Of a stretch of 27,915 bases of DNA, positions 1 through 25,006 are shown piece by piece. This stretch comes from a virus, in the IMG/VR virus record IMGVR_UViG_3300003885_000041, positions 1-27,915 of that record; one strand, written 5' to 3'. A model generated the notes under the pieces. That model had not been told where the DNA came from. It saw only the letters and a program-made list of their open reading frames with translations, and did no database searches. The translations under genes were made by a program, and so were the position numbers. Positions within the stretch are counted from its first letter, which is position 1. Each line of letters begins with the position of its first letter.

Positions 1-2070
1 ATCGTAGTCCTTGATGCAGAGACATCCCTACACAATGAAGGAGAGCAGGCCGTAGGTGAGCTCAAAGCCGCGCCCTTCCACCCATGCAATTGGGTCGTTT
101 GGATAGGGCTACAGGACCTGAGCGACGAGCTCATCGTAAAGAGCGCTGTGATTACCAAGAAGTTCCCGACGTTCCCTGCAACGATACCTGTACCCACGAC
201 GACGGAAGGGCAACAGCTTATGGTTGTCGGGCACGGTATCAAGTTCGATCTTGAGTTTCTGTGCTCACCCGGTAACACTGAGTGCGAGGCCTGGCGTGAG
301 GCTATCGCCAGCCCAGACTTCTTCATATGGGACACCATGCAAGCTGAGTTCAGGTTATGTGGACAGTCGCGGACCCAGCCATCGCTCGAATGGGTATGCA
401 AGGTGCGGGGCTGGGAGGTGAAGCCGGGGCGCGTGAAGGAATACCAGAGCGCGGGTGTTAGTACCGAGGGCATTCCAGATGAAGAGGTCCAGCCGCACCT
501 AGAGCACGGCATCACTATGACGGTACGACTATTTCAGCACCAAGTACGGGAGTCAGGCAGCAAGGGTATGATGCCTTTAATGCGTGTGGAGATGGATGCA
601 ATCACAGCCACCTGTTGTATGGAAGTAAACGGCATGTACTTCAACAAGGCAGCTGCACGAACACACTTGGTGGATGTGTTACAGCCCAACTGTGATACCC
701 TTCGGGAGGAACTGGCCCAGTTACTAGCAGCTGAGGTAGGGGCACCCGTCGCTATGGTCAATCCGCTGAGCAACCCTTTCCTCACCTCGTACTTCTATGG
801 CGGTGCCTGGAAGTGGCAGCAGCACGAGCTAATGTACCTTGAAGACGGCACACCAGTGCTGTTCAAGACGGGCAAGCATGCGGGGGAGCACAAAGCAAAG
901 ATACAAAAGTACAACTTGGTACTACCGCGGCGCGTCACAGTCACAGACAAGGAGCTAGAGAAAACGTACACCGGGGTGGATGAGGGGCTACTAAATAAGC
1001 TGGTTGCTTGTGGCAAGACCACGCAGACGGATACGGAAATTATACGTAGGTTGCTGGAGCTGCGAGAGCTTAAGAAGCTAGCTAGCACATACTTCGACGG
1101 GTACTCTAAGCTGGTCTGGCCTGACGGTATGATACGTACATCGCTCAACCATGCGATTGCTGCTACCGCACGGCTGACATCGTCAGCGCCTAATCTACAG
1201 AATGCAGGGCACAATGAGGTACGGTCCTACTTCCAGTCACGGTATGAAGGAGGGCACCTACTGGAGGTCGATCTGGTCCAGATTGAAATCGTAGCACAAG
1301 CATTCCTGTCCCAAGACCCGAACATGATGCGGGATATAGAGGAGGGCATTGACTTCCACTGCAAACGTGCGGCACTAACCCAGCACATGACATACGATGA
1401 AATGTACAAGCTTGCCAAGGTAGACGAGGTACCTAAGTATGTAAAGATACGCCAGGGGGCGAAGGAATTCTCATTCCAACGGGCATATGGGGCGGGGGTT
1501 AATACTATTTCGGATAAGACCGGCCTATCTCGTGCGGAGGTTAAGGCGTTTATCTCCGCGGAAGAAGCGGAGTACCCCGAGATTACTGTAATGCAAGACA
1601 AGTGGATTGCAGCCGTCGCGGCGGCGACTAAGCCTAGGCACGGGGTAGTTTGTGGAGAGCTGGTATCTTGCACGGGGGCACGCTACCGCTTTGCGCGGGA
1701 GCTCTTTCGCGGGGACTGGACGTATAAGCCCACTATGATCAAGAACTACCCCATACAAGGACTAGCCGGGGAGATAATGAAGATAATCCTTAGTGAAGTA
1801 CGCAAGTACCTATGGAAGTACAACCACAAGCTTAGGGACCTTGCTCAAGATGCACCGGTACTAATGGCTAACACCGTGCACGACTCTGTGGTATTCGATT
1901 TGCCCGCCTGGGTTAACCCGCCAGAGATTGCCGGGGAGTTGATCGAAGTATTCACGACGGCACGGCAAATAATGAGTCAGCGCTTCGGCCTGGACTTCAA
2001 CTTACCTATACGTGCCGATGCGAAAGTCGGTGTGGACTGGTTTAATATGGAAACTGTAAAAGGAGTATAA
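1..2070 (+). CDS. Family A DNA polymerase with 3'-5' exonuclease domain (5' partial)
   Basis: This is the replicative DNA polymerase of the phage. The reading frame is open from the first base of the window, so the true start lies upstream; a GTG at 148 would cut away motif Exo I and is rejected. Numbering from base 1, Exo I is D5-A-E7 and Exo II is GHGIKFD ending at D83. Exo III is degenerate: the expected Y-x3-D reads H166-LEH-G170. The polymerase domain is complete: ARLTSSAPNLQN near 1165-1200, motif A with D424 followed by QIE, motif B R484-x3-K488-x3-F492-x3-YG, and motif C H627-D628-S. F492 rather than Tyr predicts normal discrimination against dideoxynucleotides. It is first in the visible rightward replication operon. 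Family assignment is very secure; loss of proofreading is inferred. Confidence 0.96.
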   Translation: MVVLDAETSLHNEGEQAVGELKAAPFHPCNWVVWIGLQDLSDELIVKSAVITKKFPTFPATIPVPTTTEGQQLMVVGHGIKFDLEFLCSPGNTECEAWREAIASPDFFIWDTMQAEFRLCGQSRTQPSLEWVCKVRGWEVKPGRVKEYQSAGVSTEGIPDEEVQPHLEHGITMTVRLFQHQVRESGSKGMMPLMRVEMDAITATCCMEVNGMYFNKAAARTHLVDVLQPNCDTLREELAQLLAAEVGAPVAMVNPLSNPFLTSYFYGGAWKWQQHELMYLEDGTPVLFKTGKHAGEHKAKIQKYNLVLPRRVTVTDKELEKTYTGVDEGLLNKLVACGKTTQTDTEIIRRLLELRELKKLASTYFDGYSKLVWPDGMIRTSLNHAIAATARLTSSAPNLQNAGHNEVRSYFQSRYEGGHLLEVDLVQIEIVAQAFLSQDPNMMRDIEEGIDFHCKRAALTQHMTYDEMYKLAKVDEVPKYVKIRQGAKEFSFQRAYGAGVNTISDKTGLSRAEVKAFISAEEAEYPEITVMQDKWIAAVAAATKPRHGVVCGELVSCTGARYRFARELFRGDWTYKPTMIKNYPIQGLAGEIMKIILSEVRKYLWKYNHKLRDLAQDAPVLMANTVHDSVVFDLPAWVNPPEIAGELIEVFTTARQIMSQRFGLDFNLPIRADAKVGVDWFNMETVKGV

Positions 2071-2658: not shown

Positions 2659-2674
2659 ACTTGAGGACATGCGA

Positions 2675-3568
2675 ATGAGAACAGCTCTTATTGATTTGGA
2701 TGGGCTCGTGTATGCGGCGGCATGCGTGGTCGAGACTGTGTACTATGAGCTTGACGGCATACGCTTTGACTACAAGACACAGGCCAAAGAGTACGCCGAG
2801 GAGAACGGACTTGACGTACGCGACATAGAACAGAAGGTGGATGCGCAACCAGTACAGAATGCCCTCAGTATCCTTAAGGATATGATACCTGCTAACGTGG
2901 TGAAGAGTGGGGCTGACCGGTGCGAACTGTTCCTAACCCCGGGCAAAGGTGGTGAAGATCGCCCGTTCCGGTTTGACATCTATCCCGAGTACAAGGCCAA
3001 CCGCGTTGGCAAGCACAAGCCCGTATATCTGAAGGCGTGCCGAGCATATGCCGTGAAGCACTTCGGCGCTATTATCACCTCACACATGGAGGCTGATGAC
3101 ATGATCGCCATACGTGCAGCAGAGTTACGCGCCCAGGGCGAGGACTTCGTCATCATCACGCGGGATAAGGACTTGCAACAGATTGCTGGTGACTTCTACA
3201 ACCATGAGAAGCATACAGGTATGACGGTTACAATCTCCCAAGCGCGGTTCAACCTGTTCTACCAAGTACTGATCGGGGACTCCGTGGACAATATTAAGGG
3301 ATGCCCCAACGTAGGACCAGCCAAGGCCCGGAAGGCACTGAAGCACTGCGAGACTGAGGAGGACTACCTAGGGGTATGCCAGTGGTTGTACATGCAAGCC
3401 TGCGTACGGCTCGATGAGAAGGCGTCCCAGGAGGAAGCTAAAGACCTTGGCCTTGACACGCCGGTACCGACGAACTACGCTGAGGTGCAAGCTATAGCAG
3501 ACAGGGAGTTGCGATTGAACTTCAGGCTTGTCCGCATGATCACTAACCGGCAGGACGCGAAGAGATGA
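2675..3568 (+). CDS. 5'-3' exonuclease (T7 gp6 / FEN-like family)
   Basis: Removes RNA primers and trims 5' ends during replication and recombination. The metal-binding acidic motifs of the FEN/5'-exonuclease fold are present: LIDLDG at the N-terminus, YPEYKANR, the MEADDMIA cluster, RDKDLQQI, then IGDSVDNIKGCPNVGPAKA, the helix-3-turn-helix with its conserved Asp residues. Length (297 residues) is right for a stand-alone phage enzyme. Two in-frame ATGs occur at 2669 and 2675; the second is preferred because GAGGA (2663-2667) lies seven bases before it but only one or two before the first. The stop overlaps the endonuclease I start by 4 bases (ATGA), indicating translational coupling. Family identity is secure. 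Confidence 0.95.
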   Translation: MRTALIDLDGLVYAAACVVETVYYELDGIRFDYKTQAKEYAEENGLDVRDIEQKVDAQPVQNALSILKDMIPANVVKSGADRCELFLTPGKGGEDRPFRFDIYPEYKANRVGKHKPVYLKACRAYAVKHFGAIITSHMEADDMIAIRAAELRAQGEDFVIITRDKDLQQIAGDFYNHEKHTGMTVTISQARFNLFYQVLIGDSVDNIKGCPNVGPAKARKALKHCETEEDYLGVCQWLYMQACVRLDEKASQEEAKDLGLDTPVPTNYAEVQAIADRELRLNFRLVRMITNRQDAKR

Positions 3569-3960
3569 GGTCGGGCTATGAATTCCAGATACGAGATGAC
3601 CTACGGAGACGCAGTGTTGACTTCGAGTACGAATCAGAAGTCCTTGAGTATGTGTCAACCGTACGGGGTGGGAAGTGTTGTGACTGCGGAGGCACAAAGG
3701 TAGGGAAAGGGCGTAAGTACACACCAGACTTCGTTATTGTACGGGGGGATTACAGCAAGTTATATATCGAGGCAAAAGGGCGGCTTACAAGTACAGACCG
3801 CTCTAAGATGCGCGACGTAAAGAAAGCACATCCCCATCTAGACATACGCCTACTGTTCCAGGCACGCTACGGCAAAGCCAAGGCCGACGTTAGTCAGTGG
3901 GCAGAGAAGTTCGGGTTTGATTATGCATTTGGCATTGAGGTACCACAGACATGGCTCTAA
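3565..3960 (+). CDS. Endonuclease I, Holliday-junction resolvase (T7 gp3-like)
   Basis: Resolves branched DNA before packaging and, by analogy with T7, helps degrade host DNA. The T7 endonuclease I pattern is followed closely: MRSGYE (E6 matching the T7 catalytic Glu20), DFEYESE, YTPDF with D55, YIEAKG with E69 and K71, then DRSKMRDVKKAHPHLDIRLLF. D55, E69 and K71 complete the PD-(D/E)xK-type site. Length (131 residues) is close to the T7 enzyme. An oddity is the Cys cluster C38-C39-x-C41 followed by GG between the first Glu and the PD motif, where T7 has a Cys-free loop; it might bind a metal. The start overlaps the exonuclease stop by 4 bases. Confidence 0.93.
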   Translation: MRSGYEFQIRDDLRRRSVDFEYESEVLEYVSTVRGGKCCDCGGTKVGKGRKYTPDFVIVRGDYSKLYIEAKGRLTSTDRSKMRDVKKAHPHLDIRLLFQARYGKAKADVSQWAEKFGFDYAFGIEVPQTWL

Positions 3961-7929: not shown

Positions 7930-10900
7930 TTACAGATTACGTAGTACTTTCTGGAAGTCCTCAACCCGAACTGGCGTCTGCCTGTTCCACTTCGAGTTAG
8001 CTGCTTCTGTTGCAGCCTTGTCCCACTCTCCCGCCTTTAACAACTTCCACGTTTTCTTGTGTTCCTTGAACCAACTTGTACCAAGCTGAAAGTTAACAGA
8101 TATGAGCGCAGGTATAAGCCGGGGCTCGCCCAGCACCTTAGCTTGTAGCTCAGATGCACGCAGGGCTACGGCCGCGTCCTTCTCGAACCAGGCGTCCCGT
8201 ACCTCCTGGGGCACCATGGTACCGAACGGGTACTTAATCTGCTCGGCCTTAGTTAATGTGTGCCCAATGCCCGCTGCTAGGGAACCCGTGCTATCCTTGT
8301 ACGTCTCCGAGCGGTTACCCTCGCGTAGTGCTAGCTGGTCCTGTGTAGCTTTGTCCAGCCCGGCGACCAACTCAGCCTCCTCCGGGGACTGGGTAAAGGC
8401 TTCCAGCCCTTTGGCATCAGCCTTTGCGACCTTGTCCGTGCTGGCTTCAGCCGCACTGATGAGGTTCACGCCTGACATCAGATCGAACAGGTTCCTACCC
8501 ATGGTAGTCGCTTTCATTAGCTGCTCGGGCTCACCGGTGGTCAAGAACTTCGTAATCCCCCGCAGAGCCTGTTCACCTAAACCAGCAGCAGGAATGGCAC
8601 TAAGGACAGAACCACGGCCTTGTAGCAGCCCCTCGATAGCGAACTTACCTGTCATGCCGAAAGGCACAGCTCCCGCTATGGCACCCTTCTCAAAAGACTC
8701 CACGGGATCGAATGGCTCACCACTGAGCGTGGTGCGTATCAGGTCCTTGCCTGTGCTGGACACCCCTCCGCCTGCGGCGAACAGTGCCGTCATAAGTGCA
8801 AGTGTCTTTGCGCCCTTTGCTATCATCTTTGTACTCCCCGTTTTAGCACCTTGCTCCATTATATTCAGTGCGTTGTTACGTACGAAGTTCAGCTGGTTGA
8901 TTGACCAGCTCAGTAGGGAGAATGCTAGCCGTCCGTTAGGGAACTTGCTGTATGATACAGGTAGGTCCAGGTTGCTCAACGGCCGCACGTCTGCTACGTC
9001 GTTCGCTACCAGCGAAGCAATGTCGTCGCTCATGCGGTTCGCCCGAATGTCGTCAGTCAGACGTGCTGCGTCCTGTGCCCCGAACAGCTCAGTCATATCC
9101 TTCTCGAACTTCTCTGGATTCTTGTTCGCTTGCTTCTGTCGTCTACTGAACGCTGCTTTGGTTCCCTGCTTCGAGAACTTACGGTCAAGCTGCTCGAACC
9201 CTGCGGCCTTGAGCCCGCGGCGCACTACTCGCGCCAGTCCTTCTGGCGTACGTGCTTCGGACGACAGCTCCCGCACGCCTGCGTTGTACGCGTCAGCGGC
9301 GAACTGCCCGCCCTTACCGGGTATGAACTGCTTCAGAGAGTCTGAACCAAACCGGGCTACATTGATGAAGGGGTCGCCCAGCTGCGTGATTGATGCGAAC
9401 GGGTTGAAGCCCAGAGTAGACAGAGTGATCGCGTTCTTCGCCGTACGAACTACGCCGCTCGGACCTTGGCGCCCAACACCAAAAGCGATAGACACAAGTC
9501 GTGCCGCTTCCTGTATGTCGTCCGCAGATAAGTCCCCCGATTCCATAGAGCGGGCCAGTACCCTACCCACTTGGCCATTAGGCAGGACACCGCGCAGCGC
9601 TACGTCTTCCCCCAGGGTCTGCTTAAAGAACTGCTGGGTCTGGATGTCTCTTTCAAAGCTGCTGACATTATCAATCAAGGCAGAGCGCGGGTTTACGTAG
9701 AACCGTTCGCTCGCCTCAGTGACCTCCTTAATACGCCGCGTGCGGTCCTGCTTAATAGGACGACCTCCGATGAACCGGCCTATGACGGCTGCAATCTCGT
9801 CCTCCTTCAAGTCCTGTCCGCCCTTGTCCGACTTGGCCTTAGCCAGTGCGAGGGTTAGCTCACCACGCTGCTCACGTCCGAGGGCTTTACGTACTTTGGC
9901 TATATCCCGCACCTCGCGCGGGTGGAAGTCTTCCAGGGTTTCGATTCCCTGTGTACGTAAGGCCTGCCCCTGTGCCATGAGTCTTGGGGCTACAACCCGA
10001 TCATAGATCTCCGCACTGCCTGGTACAACCCGGTCCATTTTCACCCGGTCCAGGTTCATAACAGCCGTACGAAACGTGGGGCTTTTCTCGAATGCCCTGG
10101 TTATGGCCGGGTTCTCCAGCCAGTCACCCATATCCTGGATAGCCGCGTTGGTTCTCCGGGAGGCTACAACGTCAACCTTACGCATAGCTACTGCTAGACG
10201 GGGGCTGATCTGATCTACGCGCTTGATGAGCTTGTTCCCAAACGTCTGTGTGGCCCGCACCTTACCCTCTGCATTGCGTACGGTACGGGGATTTGCCCCC
10301 AGGGTGTCAATCTCTGCGTTCTGCTTGGCGTTACGTTCCGCTGAGTTCTCCCGCAGGGCGGCAGTCTGCGGGTTCTCCGCGTCAATCGCCTTCTGCTCCA
10401 GGCGTGCGAGCATAGCATCCTGCCGGGCAGCCAGCTGCTCCTGCCGTACTGTGTCGATGGAGGAGGGTGCCGGGGTAATTGGATCCCGTCTCTGTAGGGC
10501 TTCTCTTGCCCGTACCCTCTCGATCCCCTCCGTACGTATAGCCTCTGCTCGGATCGACCTGTCCGCGTCCCGCTCTGCCGCGGTGCGCGCCATGAAGTCC
10601 GCCATGTCCCCGTCCTCGGCAAACGCCTTTCGGATCTCCCGTCGTATCTCTTTCTCTTCCCCAGTAAGTACGCGCTTCTTACCGTTCGCACCATCTGTGA
10701 TAGACATTGCTGTCTTTGGGTTGTGGATCAAATCAATAGTAGCTGCTTCCACCTTGCTGGCCGCACTAAGGCCATTGACAGCCTCCGCCAGCTGCTCGAG
10801 CTGGGCGGGCTCTAGGTCTACACCCCCGGCTTTGTTCACCTCAGCGAGCTCTCGTGTGGTCACCGGTGCTCCGGTTTCCATACGCTTGTCAAAGAAGTTC

Positions 10901-11568
10901 CCGTACTTAGCGATGGAGCGGTCTGCCGAGATAGCCCCGCCTACACCTCCCACGAGGCCGATGACGAGCTGGCCCCATGGACCCACCCCTTGCTCTTGGG
11001 CAGTACCAACAGCGCCACCAGCAGCCACACCGCCAGCCACCTGGGCTGCTGCGTTCTCCTGGAGCTTGGCCGCCAGGCGTGCTGGCAGGGCAGTTGCGCC
11101 ACCAATACCACTTATGGCGCCTGCGCCGAACTCTACTACAGAGCCCGCCACGCGCTCCCCCGCGGTATCTGGGGTGGCTACACCCAGCTTAGTCAGCTGC
11201 TCGTCCACCACCTGGGAGGGCAGGGCAAGGTTCACGCCAGGGATCACGTTCAGTGCCTGGTTCACGGCGTCGCCGATCACGCCTACGGCACCACGAGCTA
11301 CGGCGCGCACGCCAAGCTCCTGTTGGCGCATGAAGCGTTCGCCCAGGGTTGGTGCGGCTGGTACATCTTGTTCAGGAGGAGGAGCTTGAGCAGGAACGTC
11401 GCCCGCCCCCTGAGCGGGGGGCGGTTCTGGTGCAGCTTCTGGCTCGAACAAGCCAGCGGCTACGGCACGCTGTTGGATTTCTGCGTCGGACAGATCACTC
11501 GGGACGTCGAAGTCCACGATCTCTCCAGAGGGAAGTTGCAGTTCTACAATTTCACGGTTACGTGCCAT
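7930..11568 (-). CDS. Internal virion/ejection protein with C-terminal T4-type lysozyme domain
   Basis: A 1212-residue virion protein, functionally like T7 gp16: packed in the capsid, ejected with the DNA, and forming the channel across the envelope while digesting peptidoglycan. The N-terminus has an acidic/Pro-rich linker (about 42-75), then long Ala/Gly-rich, possibly membrane-active stretches (about 140-225). The centre is a charged helical region with Arg/Glu-rich segments. Hydrophobic segments reappear around LAFSLLSWSINQLNF and TLALMTALFAAGGG. Residues about 1070-1212 form a GH24 lysozyme-like domain: REGNRSETYKD (E1083, D1092) and GIGH (H1103). The residue equivalent to T4 Thr26 is Ala1098. 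T7 gp16 carries a different (N-terminal) transglycosylase, so the arrangement is distinct. It is the last gene of the leftward operon. An AAGG lies about nine bases before the ATG. Confidence 0.88.
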   Translation of the reverse strand: MARNREIVELQLPSGEIVDFDVPSDLSDAEIQQRAVAAGLFEPEAAPEPPPAQGAGDVPAQAPPPEQDVPAAPTLGERFMRQQELGVRAVARGAVGVIGDAVNQALNVIPGVNLALPSQVVDEQLTKLGVATPDTAGERVAGSVVEFGAGAISGIGGATALPARLAAKLQENAAAQVAGGVAAGGAVGTAQEQGVGPWGQLVIGLVGGVGGAISADRSIAKYGNFFDKRMETGAPVTTRELAEVNKAGGVDLEPAQLEQLAEAVNGLSAASKVEAATIDLIHNPKTAMSITDGANGKKRVLTGEEKEIRREIRKAFAEDGDMADFMARTAAERDADRSIRAEAIRTEGIERVRAREALQRRDPITPAPSSIDTVRQEQLAARQDAMLARLEQKAIDAENPQTAALRENSAERNAKQNAEIDTLGANPRTVRNAEGKVRATQTFGNKLIKRVDQISPRLAVAMRKVDVVASRRTNAAIQDMGDWLENPAITRAFEKSPTFRTAVMNLDRVKMDRVVPGSAEIYDRVVAPRLMAQGQALRTQGIETLEDFHPREVRDIAKVRKALGREQRGELTLALAKAKSDKGGQDLKEDEIAAVIGRFIGGRPIKQDRTRRIKEVTEASERFYVNPRSALIDNVSSFERDIQTQQFFKQTLGEDVALRGVLPNGQVGRVLARSMESGDLSADDIQEAARLVSIAFGVGRQGPSGVVRTAKNAITLSTLGFNPFASITQLGDPFINVARFGSDSLKQFIPGKGGQFAADAYNAGVRELSSEARTPEGLARVVRRGLKAAGFEQLDRKFSKQGTKAAFSRRQKQANKNPEKFEKDMTELFGAQDAARLTDDIRANRMSDDIASLVANDVADVRPLSNLDLPVSYSKFPNGRLAFSLLSWSINQLNFVRNNALNIMEQGAKTGSTKMIAKGAKTLALMTALFAAGGGVSSTGKDLIRTTLSGEPFDPVESFEKGAIAGAVPFGMTGKFAIEGLLQGRGSVLSAIPAAGLGEQALRGITKFLTTGEPEQLMKATTMGRNLFDLMSGVNLISAAEASTDKVAKADAKGLEAFTQSPEEAELVAGLDKATQDQLALREGNRSETYKDSTGSLAAGIGHTLTKAEQIKYPFGTMVPQEVRDAWFEKDAAVALRASELQAKVLGEPRLIPALISVNFQLGTSWFKEHKKTWKLLKAGEWDKAATEAANSKWNRQTPVRVEDFQKVLRNL

Positions 11569-23663: not shown

Positions 23664-25006
23664 TTACGGGACTCCAAAAAACTCCTGTAACGACATTGTG
23701 TCAAAATACCCGGCCGCTTCTCGCGACAATATCCAGTCAATAAATTCCTGAAATGAATCCCTGTTGATGCTGGGACTTCCGCCGCCGGAGGCTAAAATCC
23801 GATGCATCAGGATGAAGATAGATGCACCTTGGCGGGCCGCCTCAAGGATCAATGCTTTATCATTCGCACCGTTCCCGGCTCCTGCCTGATAGGAATTTTC
23901 CGTCACTGAAGTGACTAAGGGAAAGTTTATAGAATCGAACGCCTTAATTGCGGGGTTGTCCGGGTGACCAATGTACTGCGGGAAGTTTGTCGCGCTCTTC
24001 GCAGCAATGCGACCCAGCTTGTACCCGGCAGCCTGTAGTCCATCATTCAACGCGGAGTTCGTTGCATTGAACGGGAACGCCATATAGCTTGACATTGTCG
24101 GCATGCCGTTCGCGTTTAGATAGTCACGTCCCACATCGACATTTTGCACAGCTACCGGCACACTTGTCAGCGTTAAATTCGTATGGTCCTTTCCGTGCGG
24201 CCCAATAGTCCAGCCACTCCCGAACATCTGCTGTGCTTGCGGCAGCGTGAGCGAAGTCCCGGCAATCATGGTATCCGAGTTGATGAAACTGGTGCCTTGC
24301 ATGCCGTTCTGGGTATACATGTAATCGTAGGCTTCGGTAAAATCACTAAATCACTGTCCGAGCCATCATCGAACATCAACACCAATTTACTTTTTGTCGT
24401 CTGATCTAAATAAATAGAGTCGATGTACACCTCAACATCAAAAGCCCCAAAATTATCGATCTCAATCATCCACCACTGAATCTGAGCCAAAGTCGAACTG
24501 TCGGCAGGAACAACAATTGGGCTGTCCACCCTAAAACGGACGCACTTCCACTTACCGCCAAAGGTTGGAGAATCCGGCCAAGCCGCATTCGTGTTGGCCC
24601 ATTTGAATTTATTGGTAGTCGTAGCAAAGGAGTCTGTTTGACCAAAAAAGTTAACCCGTAGATCGGACCCGGCATCATTCGTAAAATTACCAGACTCGTC
24701 ATATATCCAAACAGAGATAAAGTTCACACTCGACAGATCGAGCGGCTCATTAAACCGAGCTTGTCCTAAGTTGTCGGTAGCGTCTACTAATTTCATATGC
24801 CAGGATTGTGTACCGCTGACGAACTGCGCGCTTGATGCCTCGTTAATCGTCATGGTCCCTTCCGTAGTTGTCGGAAGTTTCGACGTGAAGTCTGTTAGTA
24901 AGACGCCTGGACCCACCGGAGGAACCGGACTGAACACCGTACTCACCGCGGCAGGCAGGTTGTCTACTGCCAGTGGTATTCCAGAGTTTGTTCTAATTAT
25001 TGACAT
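23664..25006 (-). pseudogene. Tail polysaccharide deacetylase, frameshifted by an 8-bp duplication
   Basis: Intended product: a virion enzyme that binds and deacetylates surface sugars. Residues 1-205 form a beta-sandwich, carbohydrate-binding-like domain (WHMKLVDATDNLGQARFNEP, VNFISVWIYDESG, VEVYIDSIYLDQTT). The NodB domain then starts with VLMFDDG (D213-D214). At 24340-24355 the octamer AAATCACT occurs twice in tandem; this shifts the frame right after FDDGSDSD, and translation would stop 27 residues later (product of 246 residues). In the other frame the rest of the domain continues to 23664: GMQGTSFINSDTMIAGTSLT, WTIGPHGKDHTN (the HxxxH metal site), AFPFN and ILMHR. Deleting one octamer gives FDDGSDSDFTEAYDYMYTQN and a 444-residue protein. 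The start is coupled to the fibre gene (TGATG). Confidence 0.85.
24340..24355. repeat. Perfect 8-bp tandem duplication (AAATCACT x2)
   Basis: Two exact, adjacent copies of AAATCACT (24340-24347 and 24348-24355) sit within the deacetylase coding sequence, directly after the FDDG metal motif. Eight bases are not a multiple of three, so the duplication shifts the frame. Loss of one copy by slipped-strand pairing would restore the gene. Confidence 0.95.

Follow-up and report, generated by a model that had tools for sequence, protein, structure and literature searches.

A phage family A DNA polymerase with a probably inactive proofreading site and an apparently intact polymerase site

The family A DNA polymerase (polA) of an uncultivated tailed phage probably carries a DEDDy 3'-5' exonuclease site that is inactive or nearly so, next to a polymerase site that appears intact; judged from its sequence, the enzyme probably copies DNA without correcting its own errors. 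The window, i.e., the whole stretch of DNA analysed, is a complete IMG/VR record of 27,915 bases, and it is a fragment, since polA is cut by the record's edge. The gene is open at the first base, with about 2 N-terminal residues fewer than in the relative L015, and residues are numbered here from the first base of the window. The exonuclease domain occupies approximately residues 1–185 and the polymerase domain approximately residues 346–689. The gene and its motifs are as follows:

1..2070, plus strand: polA, family A DNA polymerase (PF00476, 147.7 bits against a cut-off of 34.3; phrog_17, E 3.2e-74)
13..21, plus strand: Exo I, D5-A-E7, intact
235..249, plus strand: Exo II, G79-I-K-F-D83, Asp retained and Asn (Klenow N420) replaced by Gly, as read from aligned relatives
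496..510, plus strand: Exo III, H166-L-E-H-G170 where Y-x3-D (Klenow Y497, D501) is expected; codons CAC CTA GAG CAC GGC
1270..1272, plus strand: motif A Asp, D424 (invariant in alignment A3; 58/58 relatives selected by polymerase motif)
1450..1488, plus strand: motif B, R484, K488, F492 and Y496 (invariant in alignment A3; 58/58 each, with F492 and Y496 fixed by the fetching pattern itself)
1879..1884, plus strand: motif C, H627-D628 (invariant in alignment A3; D628 in 53/58, a gap in 5/58)

Membership in family A follows from the PF00476 score above cut-off together with the retained D424, R484, K488, F492, Y496 and D628, and the best reading of the sequence is an intact polymerase site in an otherwise normal replicase. 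In the exonuclease domain, three of the six motif residues are replaced (N79G, Y166H and D170G), and D5, E7 and D83 are retained. Compared with a competent DEDDy exonuclease, the D-x-E of Exo I is present, the Asn–Asp pair of Exo II is broken by Gly79, and the Y-x3-D of Exo III is missing. The codons at 496–498 (CAC, His166) and 508–510 (GGC, Gly170) lie in the open frame 1–2070, and both residues fill the Exo III Tyr and Asp columns without gaps in alignments to named phage polymerases and to IMG/VR relatives. When a 43-sequence profile was aligned to sequences of the Klenow fragment, an alignment that stops short of Exo I, the H166 and G170 columns fell on Y497 and D501, and those of the Exo II Asn and Asp on N420 and D424; the Klenow numbers are set by the chain offset. 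Family PF01612 was discarded as evidence: 32 of the 43 aligned members match it (E up to 0.1), but the window does not, and neither does the intact L015.

Comparison with relatives confirmed most of what an earlier note had read from this DNA and widened the damage. The Exo I Asp and Glu, described there as intact, occur in the same columns in 154 of 154 aligned relatives. The Tyr and Asp reported as absent from Exo III are present in all 154, as well as in 24 of 24 further relatives outside that combined alignment, and the alignment with phage family A polymerases places no other Tyr/Asp pair in Exo III. The His/Gly pair, which the note proposed looking for in relatives, was found in none of them. 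Exo II had also been called intact; this holds for D83, but not for the residue four positions earlier, where the window has Gly79, 153 of the 154 relatives have Asn and one has His. A probable loss of exonuclease function beside complete polymerase motifs is thus well supported at the sequence level, with N79G as an additional lesion. The error-prone replicase that the note suggested is a more tentative reading, since a separate proofreader may lie outside the fragment. The Exo II Asp column itself is slightly variable, with Asp in 147 and Glu in 7 of the 154 relatives, and Glu in 2 of the 22 readable sequences of the later set. The Asp-to-Glu variants (NAKFE or NAKYE; L139, L140, L156, L167, L174, L189, L199, L230 and L242) have an intact Exo III Tyr and Asp. 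The His at the Asn column belongs to L191 (VGFHIKFDL), the sole other deviation there among the 154.

In the first alignment, D, E, N, D, Y and D occupied the six motif positions in 100 of 100 relatives, a count biased towards intact Exo II because many of the loci were retrieved through a pattern for that motif. To avoid this bias, a second sample was drawn by a polymerase-domain motif alone, blind to the exonuclease. The scan returned at least 119 stretches, corresponding to 117 new loci plus L113 and L084; 35 of the 117 were dropped for having fewer than 430 residues before the motif (20 + 15), leaving 82. Exo III Tyr and Asp were present in all 82 of these usable sequences (58 + 24), among the matches listed. 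Four of the first 58 had truncated N-termini and were left out of the 154-row alignment, so that 78 of all 178 relatives (154 + 24) were chosen by the polymerase-domain motif. Nine split or partial sequences had been left out of the first alignment (L002–L005, L009, L010, L027, L076 and L101), and all nine keep the Asn, Tyr and Asp. The 154 rows form 132 groups at 99% identity and are not all independent; pattern scans also overlook some relatives, as L146 and L218 were absent from the earlier lists. The uniqueness of the window's losses holds among the relatives examined, and nearer kin could share them. An apparent loss of the Asp in L012, L013, L084, L087 and L091 on a tblastn map proved spurious, caused by an insertion that separates YL from GD, and all five have the Asp; a scan with the window's own motif (PHLEH-G-[IV]-T) returned only L095 and L096, both chance matches that are not polymerases.

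A side observation concerns the integrity of polA in this group. The gene is split into two frames in ten relatives (L016, L017, L097, L098 and the named phages L002–L005, L009 and L010), at a site 3–17 residues after the conserved PNLQN motif (window N401), through an in-frame stop (9126–9128 in L016) followed by a new frame. Several split genes carry a small gene between the halves, which in phage ICP2 is an HNH endonuclease. The position after PNLQN looks like a recurrent site of insertion or splitting; polA of the window, L015 and L146 is unsplit.

The closest relatives found, L015 (43% identity), L146 (44%) and L218 (43.5%), all retain the Asn of Exo II and the Tyr and Asp of Exo III, with Exo III reading PYLEHDVTVT (Tyr and Asp codons TAC and GAC), PYLKHDVRST and PYLAHDVEST, respectively; L015 and L146 share 74% identity. 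The window, L015 and L146 have the polymerase, the 5'-3' exonuclease, endonuclease I and a 133-residue gene in the same order, and the window polymerase belongs to the replication module of its phage, which includes two further genes:

2669..3568, plus strand: 5'-3' exonuclease, downstream of polA and not a 3'-5' proofreader (phrog_107, PF02739; 46% identity to L015, 42% to L146)
3565..3960, plus strand: phage endonuclease I (PF05367; 55% identical in L015 and L146)

The plus strand downstream of polA also carries an endonuclease VII-like gene and a metallophosphoesterase gene, and the tail, capsid, portal and terminase genes are on the opposite strand. Directly 3' of polA, positions 2075–2632 (TTG start) encode 185 residues with no PHROG or Pfam match; L015 has a counterpart of 186 residues in the same place, and, judged by position alone, its product might be a single-strand DNA-binding protein. 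Elsewhere in the window, a polysaccharide deacetylase-like domain (PF01522, above cut-off; 23664–24320) adjoins the large terminase gene, and a tail-associated protein of 1212 residues (7930–11568, minus strand) ends in a C-terminal phage lysozyme domain, PF00959. This large tail protein is also common to the window and L015, with 38% identity.

Because the closest relatives are intact and the gene order is common to L015 and L146, the window enzyme is most likely an orthologue of their module polymerase that was altered on its own branch. When the capsid protein, endonuclease I and a DFHCKRAA motif were used to look for closer relatives, no further polymerase emerged (L114–L122 and L125 contain none; L113 and L124 duplicate the L015 record), and a scan of bacterial genomes returned one distant polymerase, L123, without an exonuclease part. 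The window gene could instead be a decaying or accessory copy, with another polymerase replicating the genome. The genome is incomplete, and in the 14 phages described in excerpts of PMC11348598, the phage PolA called divPolA1, whose exonuclease is apparently dead, accompanies a regular polymerase. However, the window polA retains its polymerase residues and heads the same replication module as the L015 and L146 enzymes; no second polymerase was found among ten further L015 proteins scanned or among the proteins scanned in the window, itself a fragment. We consider an accessory role improbable.

The position of the altered sites raises the question of sequence quality. They come from a single metagenomic record, all within 510 bases of its edge, and each Exo III change lies one transition away from the corresponding L015 codon (TAC or GAC), in agreement with the transitions proposed in the earlier note; sequencing or assembly errors near a contig end could in principle have produced them in a phage that is really intact. 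We regard such an error as very improbable, because, compared with L015, N79G takes a minimum of two base changes, the reading frame remains open, and other conserved exonuclease columns (Q113M, Y117F) differ together with the motif residues. The extent of these differences was assessed on 81 representatives under 80% identity, with a column taken as conserved when at least 95% of the others agree. In the exonuclease domain 23 columns are conserved on this criterion; the window departs from 7 of them (N79G, Q113M, Y117F, Y136R, Y166H, D170G and N173M), and each of the other 80 representatives from at most 3; columns 136 and 173 deviate in L015 and L146 too. Of the 45 columns conserved in the remainder of the protein, 4 are broken in the window and up to 9 in other representatives, so the excess of broken columns (7/23 versus 4/45) lies in the exonuclease domain.

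This excess did not translate into a significant acceleration of the whole domain by branch lengths. On a fixed tree, the branch of the window measured 1.22 against 0.80 for its sisters in the exonuclease domain and 0.62 against 0.54 in the polymerase domain, i.e., ratios of 1.52 and 1.14 (bootstrap medians 1.55 and 1.16), the exonuclease ratio being the larger in 76% of 100 bootstraps. With L015 alone the ratios were 1.48 and 1.32, and the exonuclease ratio was larger in 54% of 100 bootstraps; neither comparison was significant. Cruder tallies point rather to a quicker pace in the exonuclease domain: the window falls below L015 in identity to 38 of 40 outgroups in that domain and to 13 of 40 in the polymerase domain, and it departs from the outgroup majority at 12 exonuclease sites against 4 in L015 (p 0.08), with 21 sites each in the polymerase domain. 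Wholesale decay is nonetheless disfavoured, because 34 of 45 pairs of similar polymerase identity are less alike in the exonuclease than the window and L015. The domain as a whole seems still constrained, and the lack of a significant acceleration speaks against a long decay. Such constraint would fit a role of the exonuclease domain as a structural part of the polymerase, or a fairly recent inactivation.

Structure modelling agrees with a persisting domain. The AlphaFold2 model (mean pLDDT 88.4, pTM 0.87) has as its top structural match a Bst fragment (Z 31.4, rmsd 3.0, 546 aligned), ahead of Taq (29.8) and Klenow 1kfd (28.2); these matches indicate fold, not activity, and the exonuclease domain persists and is predicted to fold. 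Exo III lies on a helix:

478..561, plus strand: predicted helix, residues 160–187, bearing Exo III (DSSP on the AlphaFold2 model; pLDDT 93–96 in blocks 151–190)

The acidic residues of this helix are D160, E161, E162, E168 and E184. By sequence and modelled helix, none of them occupies the place of the Exo III Asp or lies a turn away from it; the residue where a DEDDh enzyme would have its Asp is I171, and the helix has no acid between there and E184. The Exo III spacing of DEDDh exonucleases is H-x4-D, and conversion of the site to that type through the Tyr-to-His change was rejected, as residue 171 is Ile where Asp is required. A further reading is that the site is altered rather than dead, with His166, His169 or Glu168 partly substituting and giving a weaker or different nuclease activity. 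The retained D5, E7 and D83, the lack of significant domain-wide acceleration and the tolerance of Glu for the Exo II Asp in some relatives are consistent with it; yet G170 has no side chain to bind metal, E168 and H169 would point to other faces of the helix in the model, and the His-x4-Asp spacing is absent. Partial substitution therefore appears unlikely.

An inactive or nearly inactive editing site is what the chemistry would predict. In family A exonucleases the metals are held by four carboxylates, and the Tyr contacts a phosphate oxygen. In excerpts of PMC9324360 on the Tt72 phage polymerase, exonuclease activity fell to 4% when the equivalent Tyr was changed to Ala and to 3% when the equivalent Asp was; because the window lacks both residues and the Exo II Asn as well, little or no editing is expected of it. 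With the carboxylate of Exo III gone, nothing would hold the pair of catalytic metals in place, the scissile phosphate would be deprived of its Tyr contact, and mismatched 3' ends would be left in place. The exonuclease domain would then persist as a scaffold, and fidelity would rely on base selection and possibly host mismatch repair. Some residual activity is possible, since three of the four acidic ligands (D5, E7 and D83) remain, and a ligand from elsewhere in the protein may complete the metal site. A side effect that would be expected is synthesis through hairpins, as an excerpt of PMC3997047 describes exonuclease-minus T7 polymerase as able to synthesise through a hairpin region.

Even with an inactive exonuclease in this enzyme, the phage might proofread with the help of another 3'-5' exonuclease, supplied either by the host or by a gene in the part of the phage genome that the record lacks. 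The record ends inside polA, and a DnaB-like helicase and other genes lie upstream of the polymerase in L015, so part of the genome is missing. RNase_T (PF00929) had no match in the window or in the 20,179-base L015 record, which is weak counter-evidence as both may be fragments. We judge proofreading in trans to be rather unlikely. Proofreading is thought to hold the mutation rates of dsDNA phages low. If the inactive site belonged to the lineage's only replicative polymerase, the phage would be a naturally occurring wild mutator, an idea put forward tentatively from the sequence; it would survive by base selection, by host repair, or because frequent mutation or strand displacement is of benefit to it. 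Such a natural polymerase and its intact sisters, at 43–44% identity, would offer a ready pair for testing how far a phage depends on proofreading, and the window enzyme might be naturally suited to strand-displacing synthesis.

Loss of the proofreading site looks rare in phage polymerases of the window's kind; among the titles listed in the literature searches, none described a phage module polymerase lacking Exo III in this way, and one may be published elsewhere. The polymerases of phages ICP2 and VP41s3 (Zobellviridae) and phiKT and Cd1 (Autographiviridae) have the same architecture and polymerase motifs at 26–31% identity to the window, but they retain the Exo II Asn and the Exo III Tyr and Asp, and the window enzyme does not. 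The divPolA1 of large Flavobacterium and related phages resembles it as a phage PolA with an apparently inactivated 3'-5' exonuclease; in the excerpts of PMC11348598, all three catalytic Asp are replaced and the thumb is truncated, beside a regular polymerase. In the window, by contrast, two of the three Asp remain (D5 and D83), and the fragment revealed no second polymerase. Inactive exonuclease domains are well known in family A, and Bst and Taq Pol I are not known to proofread. According to excerpts of PMC12926913, the DEDDy motif is substituted in about half of bacterial PolA1, and the exonuclease of PolA2/APEX has been inactivated. In these cases a folded but inactive exonuclease domain accompanies a working family A polymerase, the arrangement predicted for the window. 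PolA1, PolA2/APEX, Bst and Taq Pol I are cellular polymerases, whereas the polymerase of the window is part of a phage replication module.
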